This document shows, piece after piece, positions 15,694 through 45,878 of a stretch of DNA of 64,000 nt. The notes beneath the pieces were generated by a model. It was not told the DNA's origin, made no database searches, and was given only the letters and a program-made list of their open reading frames with translations. How positions within the stretch are numbered: the first letter of the stretch is position 1; each line of letters starts with the position of its first letter. Position numbers and translations under genes: made by a program. This DNA is from Utricularia gibba. Taxonomy: Eukaryota > Streptophyta > Magnoliopsida > Lamiales > Lentibulariaceae. Where the stretch lies: the NCBI GenBank assembly GCA_002189035.1, contig NEEC01000017.1, positions 1,550,001-1,614,000 on the forward strand, in the 5' to 3' direction.

Positions 15694-17287
15694 TCAATAC
15701 ACATGGGCCTCGAGTCTGGGCTTAGGGTGCACCACCAACGGCTCCGCCCGCTGCAATGTCAGCCCATATGCTTCTTCCATATTCAACGCCTTCGCAGATT
15801 TACCACCCACGATGTCAAAATCGAACCCTTGGACCAACGTCGCTGTCAAAAGCTGCACCATTCGAATCCCTAGACTCATCCCGGCGCATATCCGCCGCCC
15901 AGCGCCGAACGGAATGATCTCAAAATCGTTGCCTCGTACATCAACTTCCGTCTTGTCGCCACCGGGAAGGAACCGTTCTGGACGGAACTCGAGCGGATCA
16001 CGCCACTGCTCCGCATCTCGAGAAATCGCCCAGACGTTCACGAGCAGCGTTGTTCCTTTTGGGATGAAGTAGCCGTTGATCTCGCAGTCCTTGTCCGCGA
16101 TTCTCGGCAGCGAGAGAGGTGTCGATGGATGGAGGCGGAAATTCTCCTTCACGATCGCTTGAAGATACGGCAGCTGCGGGAGATCTGATTCTTCGACGAG
16201 GCGATTCTTCCCGACGACGGAATCGATCTCTTTCTGCGCCTTGGATAAGATCTCCGGGTGGCGGAGGAGCTCGGCAACTGCCCATTCGACGGTGCTCGAG
16301 GTTGTGTCGGTACCGGCAGCGAAGAGATTCTGGGAAAATTATTATTAGTTGAAGTTGAATACTTTTTTTAACTGAAATAAATAATAAAGGTACCAGTAGT
16401 AACGCTTTGATTTCCGTGTCAGTAAGCTTTCCTCCCTCGGAATCATCGACATCCTTGAGGGAGATCAACGTCGAGAGAAGGTCCACGTGGCCTGTTGACG
16501 CATTAGAACCGTTGATCTTGTGATCCTCGAGAATCTTGCTCAGAAATGCATCGAAACGTCGATGAATGTTCTTCATCTTCGCTGCGACGCCCTGCAAATC
16601 TAGAGGCTCTAAGGGCGGGATGAAATCTCCGAGATTGAATATTCCGGCGGCTACCATCAGCTCCACCACCAGATTCTTGAACTCCTCAGCCTTCTTATCG
16701 CCGCCGCCGCTCTCGTGGCTCACCACGCGCCGCCCTAGCATCACGCGTGCGATCGCGTTAGTGGCGCAAACGTTCAGCATCTGGCCCAGCCTCACCGGCA
16801 CATTTCCAGCAGTAGCCAGATTCCTCGCCAGAACCCCAACCTCCTCCTGCCGGACATGGCGGAAGTCGTCGAGCGCCTTCGCGGAGAAAAGGTGGAGAGC
16901 ACAGATCTTCCGGAGGAGGCGCCACCGTGGGCCGTAAGGAGCGAAGACCAAGTCCTGGTAATTATAAGCAACGTATTTAGCTCCGGCGTTGGGCGGCCGG
17001 CTGGAGAAATTAGCATCATACGTCTTCAGAAACTGCTCCGCCACACTGCCGGAGGCAGCGACAACGACGTGTTGGAATCCCATCTTCAAGTGCATCAGCG
17101 GCCCATAAGTCTTAGCCAACTCCGCCATAGTCTGGTGGGGCTTCATCCCCAACTGCAGAATGTTCCCCAGTATCGGCCATGGCGTCGGCCCCGGGGGCAT
17201 CCGCTTTCCCCCGTGGCTGCGCCGGTTGAGGAAGGCGAATACTAGAAATATGAGCCCGACGACAACCGCAAAAGCATACATTGCCAT
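15694..17287 (-). CDS. CYP75B: Flavonoid 3'-hydroxylase (CYP75B), copy 1
   Basis: Endoplasmic-reticulum P450 that hydroxylates the B ring of flavonoids at 3', the branch to cyanidin and quercetin. Two exons, 16394-17287 and 15694-16329, with a phase-0 intron of 64 bp inside the I-helix region; 509 aa, normal for the family. An N-terminal anchor is followed by the hinge MPPGPTPWPILGNI. The I-helix is NLFAAGTDTTSSTVEWA, ExxR lies in KENFRLHP, and the haem loop is FGAGRRICAG. The F3'H hallmarks VVVAAS and VDVRG (usually VDVKG) are present, and GGDK replaces the usual GGEK. Copy 2 lies about 10 kb away in the same orientation. A CACGTG G-box at 17586-17591 lies about 300 bp upstream of the start. 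Intact. Confidence 0.93.
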
Positions 17288-18172
17288 TTGATCCACCGTG
17301 AAGTTGGAAGAGACTAGCCCATGAATTTATCACAGTGGGGGAGCCGCTGTGAGACTGAACAGCAGCTACCGTCTGTGGAATGGTAGCTGAGACCGCCTGG
17401 CGGCATCCCTTTTTCCCACATTATTGTACAATTTTTTATCGTAAACTTGGGGTATTTCAAGAAATAACAAAGTTGACAATAAGTAGTTACCGAGAATAGT
17501 AGGATTGTGCTCGGGAATTGGAATGTGGGAAATTGAGGGGTTAAAATTTCTGGATTCCCGATAAGGAAGCTGGGAGTTGAGTAAGCACGTGGAAGTTAGA
17601 TGGCGAGGAGCGTGCTGGATCCACAAGGTTGGATGTGTGGCGTATAGCTCCTAGCCGTACGACTTGCAAAAAGGTATGTATTATTTGGTGATGATTTGCT
17701 TGCATCACCTAATTAGATCGCGCTTGTTCCACGACATCAGCGGACGGACAAGGCGCCTCGTCGTCCTTGTGCTTGAATTAAGGCGTGGGTTTGGCTTCCA
17801 AAACGCAAACCAGATTCTACAGTAGATAGGTGGTCTAGTCCACTCGACAAATAAAGCATCTGGGATTTTGGATTATCGTTTTAAGAATTGCGCAGCCAGT
17901 TGAAATGGGAAAACAGTGGGGGGGATGTTACGGGTCACAAGATTACGGATCACAAGATGGAGGTGCACAGTGCAGGGCGGACAACCAGAGTGAGATCATT
18001 CTTGTGGTGCAAGTGCAGGGCGGCTCCAGAGTCGTGGCAACTAACCGCCACTCGCCTTCATGGCTCAATTACAAACATGGGCTGCGGAACACAGAGAGAG
18101 GCACTGGCCATCACACGCTCCTTGTCTTCAAAAAAACAATTGTCTTGATATGTAGTAGTAAATAGAACGTAC
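17288..18172. other. F3'H copy 1 promoter and BCCP 3' flank
   Basis: Promoter of F3'H copy 1 (-), with a G-box at 17586-17591. The expected last BCCP exon should lie here but could not be found. Short overlapping open frames near 17890-18165 have no recognisable product. No TIRs or LTRs were identified. Confidence 0.4.
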
Positions 18173-26398: not shown

Positions 26399-28056
26399 TC
26401 ACAGTTTTAACATCTTATTTTTAACATAGAAGAAGCAAAAGGGGAGAAGGCTTACTGGGCATGGGCTGGACACATGGGCCTCGAGTCTGGGCTTTGGGTG
26501 CACCACCAACGGCTCGGCCCGGTGCAATCCTTGCCCATATGCTTCTTCCATGTTCAACTCCTTCGGTGACGTACCACCGACGATCTCAAAATTGAACCCT
26601 TGGACCAGCGTCGCCGTCAAAAACTGTACCATTCGAATCCCTAGACTCATCCCGGCGCATATCCGCCGCCCCGCGCCGAACGGAATGATCTCAAAATCGT
26701 TGCCTCGTACATCGACTTCCGCCTTGTTGCCACCGGGGAGGAACCGTTCTGGACGGAACTCGAGCGGATCGCGCCACTGCTCCGGATCTCGAGAAATCGC
26801 CCAGACGTTCACGAGCAGCGTTGTTCCTTTTGGGATGAAGTAGCCGTTGATTTCGCAGTCCTTGTCTGCGATTCTCGGTAGGGAAAGAGGTGTCGATGGA
26901 TGGAGGCGGAAATTCTCCTTCACGATCGCTTGAAGATACGGTAGTTGCGGGAGATCTGATTCTTCGACGAGGCGGTTCTTTCCGACGACGGAATCGATCT
27001 CTTTCTGCGCCTTCGATAAGATCTGCGGGTGGCGGAGGAGCTCGGAAACTGCCCACTCGACGGTGGTTGAGGTGGTGTCGGTACCGGCGACGAAGAGATT
27101 CTGAGCACATTTTTGGACTTAGTTGGCAAATACTGAAACAGGAAAATATTGAAACGTACCAGAAGCAATGCTTTGATTTGCGTGTCGGTGAGCTTTCCTC
27201 CCTCGGCATCATCAACATCTTTGAGGGAGATCAACGTCGAAAGCAGGTCCCCGTCTCGTCCCTCCGACGCATGAGAACCGGTGATCTTGTGATCTTCAAG
27301 AATCTTGCTCAGAAACGCATCGAAACGTCGATGAATGCTCTTCATCTTGGCTACGACGCCCTGCAAGTCCAGGGGCTCTAAGAGCGGGATGAAATCTCCG
27401 AGATTGAATACCCCGCCGGCTTCAAACAACTCTGTCACCAGGTTCTTGAACTCCTCGGCTTTCTTATCCCCGCCGCCACTCTCGTGGCTCACCACGCGCC
27501 GCCCTAGCATCACGCGCGCGATCCCGTTGGTGGTGCAAACGTTCAGCATCTGGCCCAGCCTCACCGGAACATTCCCAGCGGTTGCCAGGTTTCTCGCCAG
27601 AACCCCAACCTCCTCCTGCCGGACGTGGCGGAAGTCGTCGAGCGCCTTCGCGGAGAAAATGTGGAGAGCACAGATCTTCCGGAGCAGGCGCCACCGTGGA
27701 CCGTAAGGGGCGAAGACCATGTCCTGATAATTATAAGCGACGTATTTGGCTCCGGCATTGGGCGGCCGGCTGGAGAAATTGGCGTCATAGGTCTTCAAAA
27801 ACAGCTCCGCCACACTCCCAGAGGCGGCAACAACGACGTGTTGGAATCCCATCTTCAAGTGCATCAGCGGCCCGTAGGTTCTAGCCAACTCCGCCATTGT
27901 CTGGTGGGGCTTCATCCCCAGCTGCAGAATATTCCCCAGTATCGGCCATGGCGTCGGCCCCGGCGGCAGCCGCTTCCCGCCGTCGCTGCGCGGGAAGAGG
28001 AAGGCGAAGGCCACAAATATGAGCGCGAGGATGAGGGCAAAAGCTTGTGCTGTCAT
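26399..28056 (-). CDS. CYP75B: Flavonoid 3'-hydroxylase (CYP75B), copy 2
   Basis: Second CYP75B gene with the same two-exon structure (27160-28056 and 26399-27100; 59 bp intron), about 532 aa. The start is ATG 28056 (MTAQAFALILALIFV). An upstream in-frame ATG at 28260 would add a non-P450 leader and is unlikely. P450 motifs are intact: PPGPTPWPILGNI, AGTDTT, KENFRLHP and FGAGRRICAG, with F3'H motifs VVVAAS, VDVRG and GGNK. It is close to copy 1: about 12 replacements in the last ~150 shared residues by my count. Differences also fall in likely substrate-recognition segments, such as VTELFEAGGVFNLGDFIPLL. The stop codon of copy 1 (after EAHVY) is lost, giving a tail of about 22 extra residues ending FFYVKNKMLKL. 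A TATA-like TATAAATA lies about 190 bp upstream. Confidence 0.92.
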
Positions 28057-28487
28057 TTTTTCCAACGTGATGAAAGACTCGAGCCACCGAGATGTTAAAT
28101 TTATTGTTCCGACCCAACTGCCATGAGTAGGGGAGGCTGTAGAGATGAGCGGCAGTTGATACCTCAATTTTTTGTAGGTGTGAATAGAAGACGCCTTTCT
28201 TAAAATAGAGAATTTGCATTTTATGTGAAAGTTAATGCATTTATTTATAAAAGAACCCACCGAGGAGCCGACACCTAGGAAGCCGAAAATATGGGTAGAC
28301 GACCTATTTATATTTATTTCTCACTAATTAAAATTAAAAATTATATTTATTTCTCACAACCAAGTCCAAGTACAACATACTATGATTTTGGATTGTCCTG
28401 CCCTATATATTTTGTATTAAAATAGGAATGATTTTAGATAGTTAGATACACGTGTGCTCTTTGTATTGGCTATAATGTTCTTTTTTT
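28057..28487. promoter_or_regulatory. Promoter region of F3'H copy 2
   Basis: Upstream of F3'H copy 2 (-) and downstream of the PMEI gene (-). A TATAAATA-like box on the minus strand lies near 28241-28252. The stretch 28300-28380 is AT-rich. Nothing else was recognised. Confidence 0.4.
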
Positions 28488-38875: not shown

Positions 38876-39790
38876 GAATGAAGTTTTAGAATGACAAGAT
38901 TGGAATCTCAGAACACTCACATCTTCAAAGTGTTTCAGAACTCTGATTTTTGGCATGAAGAAGCACACACTGCATGGTAAATGAGTGCTATTCATCAGAG
39001 ATAGTTTTGTTTATTGCATTTTGAAAGAATGTAGAAAATCCTACTTTCGCTGCACAGCACACTTGTCTTTTTTAACAGTCTGTTTGGTACAACTTATGTT
39101 TCAATAGAAACACTTCTAGAAGCGATTATCAGACAAAACACGTGTCGTTTCTGATTCATATGAAACTGAAATAATGAAGTGCTTCGATTTTTTTTAGAAG
39201 TGCTTCAAAAACAATTAAAGCGTTTATAGAATTAATTTTTTAAAATTGTTTTTTGAAACAGTAACAAACAGAGCCTAACTAAACACTCTGATAAGAAAAT
39301 AAGAAAGCAGAAGTGCACAGAGCAAAAACGCTAGTGATTCTCTTTAAGAAAAACATAGAAGAAAATGTGTGCTTTTAGCAAAGACACTTTATGTCAGGAA
39401 AGGATCAGATCCAAAACAGGTCCGCCAACTCAACAACTTGACTCCATGTGAACTAGAAACAAAGGCTAGACATGTCGTGAGGATATGGGAGAATAATAAC
39501 CTGAAAAACCAAGCCAGAAAGATTCGGAATGACGTGAAAAGATTGCTGCATAAAGAGATGAGGTGAGTTCCGCTCCATGTGTCGTATAGGAGGAATCCTT
39601 TTCTGGGAGGGGTGGCATTCTAAGGATCGCAGATTGTGAAGAAGGATTGGTGTATCACACCTTGGACGAGAAGAGTGTTGTGAATAGAAGCAGCAGCCAT
39701 GGCCGTCCCAGGAGCAGCGCAGCAGCACGCACCGGAGGGACTAGTGAGTGATGAAGAAACCCATGTGCAATAGCCCATCCTTCATCCTGG
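38876..39790. other. Intergenic region left of the foldback repeat
   Basis: 3' flank of the ABCA2-like gene. A 65-residue basic frame at 39369-39566 resembles no family I know and is probably chance. Nothing else was recognised. Confidence 0.4.
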
Positions 39791-40290
39791 CCCAGCTATC
39801 TATCACACAGCCTGGCCCAGCCCATTGCTCCAAGGTGCAGCCCAAAATAATCCTAGTCCAGCCCTCTATTCTGTGAACTGGCTCATAACAGATTTGGGTC
39901 ATAGATGACCGGGCTGAGCTAGAAGAGACATGGGCCAGTCCACAGAATAGCCCATTCTTCAGTTGTCTGGGCCAGCCCATTTTTCCAAGGTGAAGCCCAA
40001 AGTAATCTTAGTCCAGCCCTCTATTATGTGGACTGGCCCATAAAAGATTTGGGTCATAGAAGACCTAGATGGGCTAGAAACAAAATGAGCCAGTCCAAAA
40101 AATAGAGGGCTGGACTAGGACTAATTTGGGCTAAGGCTTGGAAAAATGGGCTGGACCAGGCTGTGTGATAGCCAAGTGGGCCAGGCAACTGAAGAATGGG
40201 CTATTCTGTGGACTGGACCATGTTTCTTCTAGCCCATGGGCCAGTCCACAGAATAGAGGGCTGGACTAGGATTACTTTGGGCTGCACGTT
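39791..40290. repeat. Palindromic foldback repeat rich in TGGGCC/GGGCT motifs
   Basis: About 500 bp with nested direct and inverted repeats. The segment 39800-39869 (from ctatcacacagcctggccca to gtccagccctctat) is nearly the reverse complement of 40102-40171. A second direct copy of the unit starts near 39962, at a period of about 155 bp. The right part (about 40172-40290) is the inverse of about 39836-39977. The transcript or single strand would fold into a long hairpin. Motifs such as TGGGCC, GGGCTGGACTA and CCAGCCCTCTAT recur many times. This looks like a non-autonomous foldback or MITE-like element. Its exact ends and target duplication were not defined. Confidence 0.75.
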
Positions 40291-41052
40291 TGTGCTTAAA
40301 TCATCATGAATCACGTTTTACTTACTTACACCACACTGAATATTTCCAAGGTTTAAACTGAAGTGAATGAGCGAACTCGCTTCCTTGCCTTGTTATGGAA
40401 AGGTGTGGTAGTGCACTTATTTCAGAAAAACCTCTTTGGAATGAATTCCCCTCATAATTGCCTGCTTGCTTGTATTGCCAATCAATTTCCTGTGTTCTTT
40501 CTTTGAGTCACTTAGATTATAATAATATCCCCTATTCTAATTGCACTTACCTCACCATTAATCAATGGAGGGTGAGTTGGCATTTGTTTTTTTAGCTCCA
40601 CATTATGGGGAAATACTAGGTGTGGAAAAAACTCAGTTTTTAAAAAAAATTAAAATGAGTTTTAGGTTTTTTTTTTAATTATAAAAATTTGCATTAGAAT
40701 CATATTAATATGTAATATTAAAATGGTTGATGTCACCATAAATTAGTTATACATCATATCATATTAATATATAATATTTCACATTATTAAAACTAATTTA
40801 TCATTATATTTTTAAAAAAAATCCAAAAAACTTAAATTGAAATGGATTTTTTCGAAAAAACCTACAAATTCCAAACTCAAAAAACCCACCCCTAGGAAAT
40901 ACGCGACATACCTTTTTCCCCAGCCATGACCTTTTCGATTCAAAACTGAAACTACCGCCGACGGTTTTGGATAGCATATATAGCAACTCCCCATACTCTT
41001 CTGAACTCGCTCGCCGGAGTTCCTCTCTCCGTCTGTATTCTGCTCTCGATCC
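40291..41052. other. Intergenic region upstream of the amino acid transporter
   Basis: AT-rich at 40610-40840, followed by the probable promoter and leader of the transporter. TATATA-type sequence near 40976-40983 lies about 75 bp before the ATG at 41053 and may be the TATA box. No other feature was seen. Confidence 0.4.
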
Positions 41053-42854
41053 ATGACGGGCGACGGAGTAGCGAGAAGATGCATCTGGACCAAGCACGAC
41101 TTCTTCCCGGAGGAGTCGTTTCAGAGCTGGGGAAACTACACCCGAGCGCTGAAGCAAATTCCGGCGCGCCTTGTGGATAGGGCGCTGACTCGGTCAAACT
41201 TGGAGTCAGAGGTGGAGATCAAGGTGCGAAGTGGAAATCAGATGAAGAGGACGCTTTCGTGGTGGGATTTGATGTGGTTTGGTATGGGCGCGGTCATCGG
41301 CGCTGGACTATTTGTTCTCACCGGCCAGGAGGCGCGTCGGTCCGCTGGGCCGGCGGTCATCATCTCCTACGTTGTTTCCGGTGTCTCCGCCTTGCTAGCC
41401 GTCTTCTGCTACACCGAATTCGCTGTTGAAATCCCAGTTGCCGGTGAGGATTTCGCTGTTCCTACAAATGATCATTGACAAACTTGAGATCTTACTCTGT
41501 TTCTGTTTGTCTGTTCAGGGGGTTCATTTGCGTACCTCCGGGTGGAACTCGGGGAATTCGTTGCCTTCATAGCCGCCGGAAATATTATCCTCGAATACAT
41601 GATCGGGGGAGCGGCGGTGGCGCGTGCTTGGACGTCCTACTTCGCCACCCTCTGCAACCACGAACCCAATCAATTCCGCATCTACGCGCACGGATTAGCA
41701 ACTGGTTACAACGAGCTGGATCCTATCGCCGTCGTGGTGATTCTAATCATCTGCATCATCGTCGTGAAGAGCACGAAAGCCACTTCCAGGCTCAACTACA
41801 TCGCCACCATTGTTCATATTTTGGTCATCCTCTTCATCATAATCGCGGGCCTGATCAAATCGAACACCAGAAACTACACCCCCTTCGCGCCGTACGGCAC
41901 CCGCGGCATATTCGCCGCTGCCGCCGTGCTGTTCTTCGCCTACCTCGGCTTCGACGCCGTATCCACCATGGCGGAAGAAACTAAAAACCCAGCCAGAGAT
42001 ATACCCATCGGGTTGGTCGGGTCGATGGTGATCGTCACCGGTATCTACTGCACCATGGCGGTAACTCTGTGCTTAATGCAACCTTACGGAGAAATCGATG
42101 TGAACGCTCCATTTTCCAAAGCCTTTAAGGCGGTGGGGTGGAATTGGGCGCAGTACCTTGTTGCCGCCGGCGCGCTCAAGGGAATGACCACCGTGATTCT
42201 CGTCGGCGCCGTCGGGCAATCCCGATACCTAACTCACATCGCCAGAACCCACATGCTCCCACCGTGGTTCGCCAAGGTGGACTCCAGAACCGGCACTCCA
42301 GTGATCGCAACCGTGACGATGATGGTCTCTACGGCGATAATCGCCTTCTTCACAAGCCTCGGAATCCTCTCAAATCTCCTCACCATCTCCACACTCTTCA
42401 TCTTCATGCTGGTTGCCCTCTCCGTAATCGTGAGACGTTACTACGTAACCGGCGAAACATCACCCAAGAACCGCTACACATTGATCGCCTTCATCGCCCT
42501 AATTCTAGGATCCTCCATAGCCACAGCTGCGTATTGGGGACTGAGCGCGAACGGGTGGATCGGGTACTGCTTCACGGTGCCGATTTGGTTCCTGTCGACT
42601 TTGGGGCTGCAGCTTCTTGTTCCGATGGCCCGCCGGCCGAAGCTGTGGGGGTGCCGCTGGTCCCATGGCTGCCGTCGGCATCAATCGCCATCAATATTTT
42701 CCTGCTGGGATCCATAGACAGGGATTCCTTTGCCCGGTTCGGGATCTGGACCGTCCTGCTTCTGGTTTATTACTTCTTGTTTGGACTCCATGCCTCCTAC
42801 GACACCGCCAGACAGACTGAAGCTGGAGTCTCTCAGGCCCAGGCCTATATTTAG
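41053..42854 (+). CDS. Cationic amino acid transporter, CAT5/CAT8-like (one-base frameshift near the end)
   Basis: APC-superfamily permease for basic amino acids at the plasma membrane or endomembranes. Exons are 41053-41443 and 41519-42854; about 575 aa. Landmarks: SFQSWGNYTRALKQIPARL, then MKRTLSWWDLMWFGMGAVIG, GAGLFVLTGQEAR, CYTEFAVEIPVAGGSFAYLR, FFAYLGFDAVSTMAEETKNP and LVGAVGQSRYLTHIARTHML, with about 14 hydrophobic segments. The frame breaks at the five-G run 42647-42651. A sixth G would continue KLWGVPLVPWLPSASIAINI through the last membrane segments to the TAG at 42852, as in relatives. Left unrepaired, the protein ends 22 codons later. This is probably a consensus error. Confidence 0.9.
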
Positions 42855-43153
42855 TACTTAGGTGTAATATATGTACTTAATCAATAATTTTTATTTAAAT
42901 TATAATTAAAATTTATTGTATAATTAGATATAGAATAAATAAAATCAATCTATAAAAGTTATTGTATAAATAGATATATAATAAATACAACATATCAATT
43001 CATGTTAATATATATAAATTATGTAATGATACACATCAACTCGTGATTCGAGACAAATCTAACATGTTATCCGTCAAGTTAGACTCATGGCTCATGCTCA
43101 ACTCCGCTGTTGTTTTAAAAAGGTAGTTGAAGCACATACATTGACAACGATCA
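42855..43153. other. Tail-to-tail AT-rich gap
   Basis: About 300 bp between the convergent transporter (+) and LRR-RLK (-) genes. It is AT-rich and presumably holds both 3' UTRs. Confidence 0.4.
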
Positions 43154-45878
43154 TCAAGATGATGAATCCGATTCATGCAATTCACTCAAACCAGGAGACA
43201 TCACTTCGTTCTCCAACCACATCAGAACTTGCTGCATCGACGGCCGCTCCGCCGGATTTCTATCTGTGCATCTCAACGCGATTTCCAGAAGCTCCTCCAC
43301 CGTCTCCGCATCTGCATCGCCGCATCGTCTGTCCGCCGCGTCCTGGAGCTGCTTCTCCCTCGACAGGACGCTCATCTGCGCGTGCTTTACTGTGTCAGTT
43401 TCATATGATGCAGTGTGTGGTTCATTTCAGGATAGCTTATGTTCTGCATACCCAGCCTACGATGTCCAGTCCCCTCTCAGAAAAGGCTGGATCGTCTGGT
43501 CGTTTACCGGTCACCAGTTCTAAGAGGACAACACCGAAGCTGTAGACATCAGACTTGTCACTTCCGCTCTGCAAGTGCTCTGGAACATTTTGAAGAGGAT
43601 GCAATCATCAGTTGATATGAACACATGTTTATATTTCCAGTCTCAGAGAAACAGGGGGATACCTGGAGCTCTCCTCACATGAGCTTCTTCATCCAGGAGT
43701 AGTTCAGCATGCCCGAAGTCAGAAACATGAGGTTCAAGGTTCTCATCCAGGAGAATATTTCTTGATGTTATGCCATGGTGAATGATTCTAGGAGAGCAAT
43801 CGTGGTGCAGATAAGCTAATCCTCTTGCAGACCCAATAGCTATTCTCAGACGAGCATCCCAGTTCAGCAAATGGTCTTCAGCTGCGTGCACAGCTCGCTG
43901 AAGATGCAGTAGTGCATGCAATAAAGGAAACTAGAGTTGGATCACAGCATACCATGCAAGAGATCCTCTAGGCTTCCCATTGGCAAGTAGTCATATATAA
44001 GAAGCTTTGCTGTGGGCAGCCTGCAGTAGCCTCTGAAAGTCACTAGATTTATATGCCTGATGCTAGCCAAGATCTCCAACTCTCTTTCGAAAACTTGATC
44101 TGAGCATTCCCTTGCTCCATCGATCTTCTTGACGGCAAAGGTTCTGCAATCGTTCATTACCATTCTGTACACTGTACCAAATCCTCCAACCCTGATGATA
44201 TCATCTTCACCAAGTGACTCGATTTTTTCGACAAGCTCGCAAAAGGTGTAAGGAAGATCGCCATGAAAGGTAGTAAGCTCTGTTTCTGGACAATAAGGAA
44301 AACAGTGTCAGTCATATTACCTTTTTATTTTTATCTCAAGGTATGTTACAAGATTTCAGGGGTGTCTGCCATACTTGATTCCTGATAAACTTGCTTCTTC
44401 ACCTCTGTGTATTGATGCGCACGTCGTTCCCTCTTCATGAGGATGTGTATACGGATGAAGCACAAGAGCATAACAACTGTGAATCCGAACGCAGAAATAG
44501 CACCAACTACAAGTAGTTTTGTGTAGTTCCAGGACTGCTTGTGCACTGCGGAGCAAACACATAACAATAAAAATAACGGAGAAACTTGAGCTGAAGGATC
44601 TCTATTAGACTGAGGATCAGTTGAGCTGGTGATACCTGTTGGTTCATCACTTTCAGCGTGAGGCAAAACAGCAGGGAAAGTCAATGAGCATGGCTTATTG
44701 ACTTGCTGTCCACAAAGGTGTACATTTCCATCAAACCTATGGATTAAGATAAAGGCTTAGATCTAGACATGACAGAAAATCTAAAACAACCTGTGGAAGA
44801 TCGAAAGACATACGACATGCTTCTGAAATTTCGTAGCGTTCCAACAACAGGGATTCCACCAGATAGGAAGTTTGTTGATAGATTTCTATGGACATTGAAA
44901 TGAACTATCAGTAAACAGTTGCTACACATTCATTGTCAAATTGAAGTGGCAAGACTTACAAGTATACAAGAAGTGATAAGTGGCCAAGAGAAGAAGGAAT
45001 GCTCCCTCGTAGCAAATTACTCGACAAATCCCTGATGGAAAGATCAACACATTTATTTACTCAGGTGGTAATGTCCAGAATTTCGGCTACTATTTGATGC
45101 TATCACATTTTTCTTACAGTATCCGAAGCATAGAAAGATTTCCAAGAGCTGAAGGAATTCCTCCTTGAAAGTAGTTGGCCCGGAGGTATCTAAATACAGA
45201 ATAAAGATGACTTCAAATCGCAAATAACAGAAATTTGTTCTTCGTTTACACTTACAGGGCTCTGAGTTCAGAGCATTGAGCAATCTCATTCGGGATGCAG
45301 CCATGTAAATTATTCTGGTGAAGAGCCCTGAAGTTGGCAAACGGCAAATCCACATGATTAGACAAAGTTGTCAAATCCATACATGAAAAAGTCAAGGAAC
45401 TTACAGTCTTCGCAATTTACTGAGTCTGCAAATGCTAGGAAACAAAACCCCTCCAAGCTCCATGTATGGCATGTTTCTGCAAAGCAATATCATATTGAAT
45501 GTAATTGCAGTAAAAAAAAAAAAAAAACACAGAAGAGACTCAACATACATCGAGATTACTCTATTTTCATGATGACTGCAAGAAATGCCAGTCCACTGAC
45601 ATGGAGTTTCATCTGTTTCTCTCCAGTTTCTAAGAAAGTTTTTGCTGTCATTCAAGCCGGCTTTTACTTCCAACAACACAATACCTGCAAAAAAGAAGAC
45701 AGTCAAAAAGTTCCACTCCATCAACGGTTGAGCCTGAAAGACACAAAATTTATTCAAAAATCTAAAATGATCGTGAATTTAACACTATACCATCAGGAGT
45801 GAGAGCCAGGGAATAAGTCCAGAAAAGGGTGATAGCCAGAGCTTGCAGACAGACGACACAATGGCCATTTTTCTGCAT
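43154..45878 (-). CDS. LRR receptor-like kinase of the FEI/At5g62710 clade with degraded kinase motifs
   Basis: Exons: 45791-45878 (signal peptide), 45549-45684, 45405-45476, five 72-bp LRR exons (45256-45327, 45118-45189, 44960-45031 and 44814-44885, plus the 45405-45476 one), 44636-44736, 44350-44545 (membrane helix [19 protein letters not shown]), 43953-44285, 43663-43897, 43452-43579 and 43154-43375. The kinase resembles FEI-type receptors ([29 protein letters not shown]). The HRDIK catalytic loop reads HHGITSRN, so the catalytic Asp is missing. The glycine loop starts RVGGFG instead of GSGGFG. About 11 residues of the activation segment between EEAHV and APE are absent. The splice phases 44350/44285 and 43953/43897 do not match. 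Either an expressed pseudokinase or a decaying gene. Confidence 0.75.

Follow-up and report, generated by a model that had tools for sequence, protein, structure and literature searches.

Gene content of the window

The window, a 64,000-nucleotide stretch of the Utricularia gibba genome, carries on its minus strand a whole gene for an LRR receptor-like kinase or pseudokinase (43154..45878), with 13 exons, a CDS of 1758 or 1770 nt and a product of 585-589 amino acids. We spliced the gene by hand, using as a guide a homologous gene of the same genome (C3:2341502-2344360, referred to here as the C3 paralogue or sister). In the spliced model the frame is open from ATG to stop, no stops or frameshifts were seen in any of the 13 exons, and all 12 introns can be read as GT-AG. 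The exon phases are those of the C3 paralogue, as are most exon lengths.

Exons 1-8 (44636..45878, minus strand) encode the ectodomain, which consists of a signal peptide, an LRRNT_2 domain, five LRRs of 24 residues, every one of them encoded by a separate 72-nt exon, and a Cys pair. On translation, exon 9 (44375..44545, minus) gives the transmembrane and juxtamembrane segment. With all of these elements found, the statement in the first-pass annotation that the LRR ectodomain is intact can be kept. The kinase domain follows on the same strand: exon 10 (43953..44285) encodes the N-lobe; exon 11 (43663..43893, with its start at 43893 or 43881) the catalytic loop, DFG and a shortened activation segment; exon 12 (43452..43579) the end of APE, a 6-nt in-frame deletion and a preserved helix F motif, DVYSFG; and exon 13 (43154..43375) the C-terminal part of the kinase and the stop, with the conserved C and RP of subdomain XI retained.

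The acceptor of intron 10 (43882..43952, minus) is ambiguous, as judged from sequence and intron lengths, with three candidate AGs. TTCAG, the first of them, also appears the best-looking; its use would start the exon at 43897 after a 55-nt intron, out of frame, and end the protein seven codons on. CGAG (43893) gives a 59-nt intron and GCAG (43881) a 71-nt intron, both in frame, and the latter length lies within those of the remaining introns in the window and C3 genes, 66-133 nt.

A cationic amino-acid transporter gene (41053-42854, plus strand) adjoins the receptor gene. Together with an upstream stretch (40348-42859) it is a recent copy of C3:2668752-2671222, with 91-92% nucleotide identity and no shared flanks, and the edge of this copy lies about 300 bp from the receptor stop codon. 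The transporter's C3 copy, 326 kb from the C3 receptor, arose separately: it is a recent duplicate of this single gene, with no receptor remnants. At 42647-42651 the transporter has G5 where its 91%-identical C3 copy has G6, and its frame shifts near the C-terminus; this may be either a real lesion or an assembly homopolymer error. Between the transporter and an ABC transporter gene, a motif around GGGCTGGACTAGGATTA recurs several times, in direct and inverted orientation, within a short stretch (39780-40290). The minus strand also carries two neighbouring, closely similar P450 genes (15998-17326 and 26399-28320) of the flavonoid 3'-hydroxylase type; in the first, the 3' part of the open frame runs into non-P450-like sequence.

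Catalytic motifs of the kinase domain

The glycine-rich loop (44176..44193, minus) is GAGGFG in the C3 paralogue and GVGGFG in two FEI-like copies of the genome. In the window copy, R-V-G-G-F-G is read at 44193-44176, and the change of the first ATP-loop Gly to Arg in the first-pass annotation is thus confirmed. The catalytic loop (43757..43780) has the codons CAC CAT GGC ATA ACA TCA AGA AAT (43780-43757, minus strand), giving HHGITSRN for HRDIKSSN. The catalytic Asp is gone, as had been noted, and so are the Arg and the loop Lys, while the Asn is kept. The same annotation had the kinase Lys, helix-C Glu and DFG remaining, and indeed the AVKK Lys and helix-C Glu are present in exon 10 and DFG is intact at 43720-43712 (minus strand), as is APE.

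Between DFG and APE, a net 27-nt in-frame deletion (43669..43678, minus) turns TTVVAGTFGYL into RR and removes the activation loop and P+1 loop, so that HVTTVVAGTFGYLAPE of the paralogue aligns to HVRRAPE. About 11 residues had been thought missing here; the shortening stands, but its size does not, the net loss against the paralogue being nine residues (27 nt). Two further residues are absent after APE, where the paralogue has SGIATEKSD and the window copy SGSDKSD. A search of the following intron did not find the missing activation-segment residues there. The C3 paralogue reads IIGAGGFGTVY, IIHSDIKSSNILLD, HSDIKSSN and VAGTFGYLAPE, and thus retains the Asp, Gly, Lys and activation loop that are missing from the window copy. 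It has HSD for HRD at C3:2343719-2343727; the two copies have lost the HRD arginine via different substitutions, and both FEI copies keep it.

The window kinase domain still matches kinase profiles (PF07714, 120.9 bits; PF00069, 111.5 bits). Compared with 31 other kinases of the same genome, it departs from seven columns conserved in at least 90%, and the C3 sister from one. These columns are the loop Gly, L83, the catalytic-loop Lys, the Leu after DFG, and a Gly, a Gly and a Tyr of the deleted segment; the HRD Arg and Asp are lost in addition, the Asp being absent in 6 of the 31 comparison kinases too. The structural invariants are kept, and the losses fall nearly all on catalytic positions (Fisher p ~0.009 without HRD Arg/Asp, 0.001 with them), a result that is a description more than a test because the positions were sorted into classes post hoc, by textbook role, and a single deletion accounts for several of the columns. 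Of the marks of an active kinase, the HRD Asp and loop Lys are absent and the DFG-APE segment is incomplete, lacking GTFGYL. With Asp and Lys gone, the P+1 loop deleted and the loop Gly replaced by Arg, the earlier pseudokinase call holds at the sequence level, and the loss of catalysis in the window copy is a robust expectation.

Family placement

Our search of the genome (100.09 Mb, 516 contigs) recovered two copies of this subfamily, those in the window and on C3, along with two FEI-like genes (C413:1129 kb and C412:2209 kb); no third copy of the subfamily was found in the 516 contigs. A tree built from 33 of the genome's kinases groups these four genes in a clade with support of 100/100, within which the window and C3 genes pair (99/98) as sister to the FEI pair. 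The kinase exon junctions are common to all four, and the window gene has the LRRNT_2 and LRR matches and five 72-nt LRR exons. The assignment to the FEI clade in the first-pass annotation is thus upheld, the gene belonging with the FEI/ARH1-type LRR-RLKs (subfamily XIII-like), with the refinement that the window gene pairs with an intact-looking paralogue.

Arabidopsis ARH1 (At5g62710) belongs to a group close to FEI1/FEI2, with 48-50% full-length identity to FEI1/2 (PMC10966064), and the kinase identity to FEI found here, 52-61%, accords with this. From that published identity and the position of the pair as sister to FEI, we infer that the window and C3 genes are ARH1-type. Within 30 kb around the C3 copy, no local synteny was found between the two copies beyond the gene itself.

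Selection on the two copies

Pairwise dN/dS between the window and C3 genes is 0.17 overall, 0.155 in the kinase and 0.19 in the ectodomain, at a dS of about 1. In our branch models the two FEI genes served as outgroup, and both copies were given the same time since their duplication, a constraint justified because both paralogues are in one genome; free-rate models cannot tell a window omega of 0.4 from 1 because the outgroup is saturated at silent sites. Under equal time, the kinase of the window copy has an omega of 0.27 and that of the sister 0.09 (LRT 10.6), whereas the ectodomain values, 0.21 and 0.14, do not differ significantly (LRT 0.6). Fixing the window branch at omega = 1 costs about 24 lnL units for the kinase and 18 for the ectodomain and is rejected for both, all omega values being averages over the whole branch. 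The relaxation extends outside the catalytic motifs, with scaffold positions at 0.26 against 0.10 in the sister (LRT 5.5), and in the kinase tree the amino-acid branch of the window copy is 0.28 against 0.067, about four times faster. The within-genome evidence for a functional pseudokinase is therefore mixed: the gene is open and constrained, but its kinase is relaxed.

These patterns raise the possibility of early decay, in which the window copy, redundant with its sister and recently freed from constraint, is becoming a pseudogene and the kinase lesions are the hits so far. The fourfold faster kinase evolution also fits a loss of use, scaffold positions are relaxed as well, and the best-looking AG of the ambiguous intron 10 acceptor is out of frame. 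ARH1/FEI genes have been studied as root-tip genes (PMC10966064) and Utricularia is rootless and has lost root-associated genes (PMC4358910), so a weaker need for such a gene would be unsurprising. Codon data alone lack the power to split kinase-only relaxation from a short, recent neutral spell of the whole gene, and a spell over 8-15% of the branch matches them almost equally; at f = 0.15 the deficit is 0.64. That same spell, however, predicts 4.6 stops where none is seen, and a neutral spell that explains the kinase excess predicts about 3-6. Under early decay, about 2.5-6 stops and several frameshifts would be expected, and the exons have neither. When stops are counted, the best whole-gene decay model (8% of the branch) falls 4.5 lnL units behind a model that relaxes the kinase separately. 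Splice sites elsewhere in the gene are all canonical, ectodomain constraint persists, and the losses cluster in catalytic rather than structural invariant positions. The stop-free frame disfavours simple neutral decay. We regard early decay as the less likely reading though still the most serious competitor, and given the predicted stops and the poorer fit the data favour, but do not prove, that the gene is maintained and its kinase relaxed.

Splicing of intron 10 at TTCAG offers another reading, one that we think improbable. The resulting frame shift would cut the receptor short after the N-lobe, with nothing but the ectodomain and membrane segment before it, and the product would serve as a decoy or be subject to nonsense-mediated decay. 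TTCAG is the first AG and follows a pyrimidine-rich stretch, and the in-frame alternatives are poorer, CGAG being weaker and GCAG having no pyrimidine tract. Against this, a 55-nt intron would be shorter than any other in these two genes (66-133 nt), and TTCAG splicing leaves the constraint on the downstream kinase exons unexplained.

We give still less credence to residual or atypical catalysis, by which the domain would bind nucleotide and keep some kinase activity, or another that depends on ATP. The AVK Lys, helix-C Glu, loop Asn and DFG are kept, and the plant pseudokinase ILK1 is reported as active (PMC9403797); yet the catalytic loop has lost its Asp and Lys, the P+1 loop is missing, and the first loop Gly has given way to a charged Arg. 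Finally, an assembly or sequencing artefact is extremely improbable: the one-base homopolymer difference in the adjacent transporter gene suggests that single-base indel errors may remain here, but the lesions of the receptor are several separate substitutions and in-frame deletions of 27 and 6 nt, not homopolymer indels, in a 13-exon gene that is otherwise open, which makes errors in the motifs unlikely.

A candidate receptor pseudokinase

We propose that the window copy is probably a lineage-specific, retained receptor pseudokinase that would act without phosphotransfer in FEI/ARH1-type cell-wall signalling. Duplication would have left two ARH1-type LRR receptor kinase genes in the small genome of U. 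gibba. One, the sister, would have retained the catalytic Asp, glycine loop and activation segment, and the other may have lost catalysis stepwise (loop Gly, HRD Arg and Asp, loop Lys, activation and P+1 loops) while its open frame, ectodomain, transmembrane segment and kinase scaffold were preserved. Most likely the window gene yields a membrane protein that serves as a co-receptor, scaffold or competitive partner; we infer that this protein is produced, lacks kinase activity and has a non-catalytic role.

LRR-RLKs with short ectodomains are regarded as co-receptors or scaffolds, and LRR receptor pseudokinases, a known class to which the window copy would add a member, are common in plants. 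A scaffold or decoy role would be plausible. The kinase activity of FEI1 is not essential in Arabidopsis (PMC7912651; PMC3095605), and this dispensability makes a non-catalytic member of the group plausible. In literature on pseudokinases together with FEI1, we found no report of an FEI-group pseudokinase. More speculatively, the window receptor might have specialized as a non-catalytic partner or antagonist, both of its active-looking sister and of the FEI receptors, with the shift accompanying the loss of roots or the rise of the trap in bladderworts, although we consider this specific form unlikely. If the window copy has been retained, it would be a naturally kinase-dead FEI/ARH1 member and a natural experiment that could show where in the receptor its function resides; if it is decaying, it would represent ordinary duplicate loss in a small genome.

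Comparison with known systems

The architecture of the window gene, a short ectodomain of five LRRs with an FEI-type kinase, is that of ARH1, FEI1 and FEI2 of Arabidopsis. At5g62710 is listed as phosphorylating AtGPA1 in vitro (PMC9224535) and is therefore an active kinase, whereas the catalytic residues are absent in the window copy, ARH1 being compared here by its published descriptions.

BIR2 (PDB 4l68) is likewise an LRR receptor with a non-catalytic kinase fold; it regulates a co-receptor via competition for BAK1 (PMC10868138). Among receptor pseudokinases that work by competing for a partner, it is the best-known precedent. BIR2 belongs, however, to another LRR subfamily, and its reported block lies at the ATP pocket and P-loop; the window copy has lost the catalytic loop and activation segment and kept the Lys and DFG. 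STRUBBELIG, maize MARK, ZmDRIK1 and other atypical RLKs work, or are thought to work, without phosphotransfer (PMC3095605; PMC7158045). STRUBBELIG, MARK and ZmDRIK1 also differ from the window gene in subfamily, and the function of SUB has been shown by genetics, whereas the window gene is known from its sequence. Closer to hand, several LRR-RLKs of the same genome have HYN, HRN, HLN or HQN for HRD and lack the Asp as the window copy does. These belong to other clades, and among the four FEI/ARH1-type copies it is only the window copy that is without the Asp.
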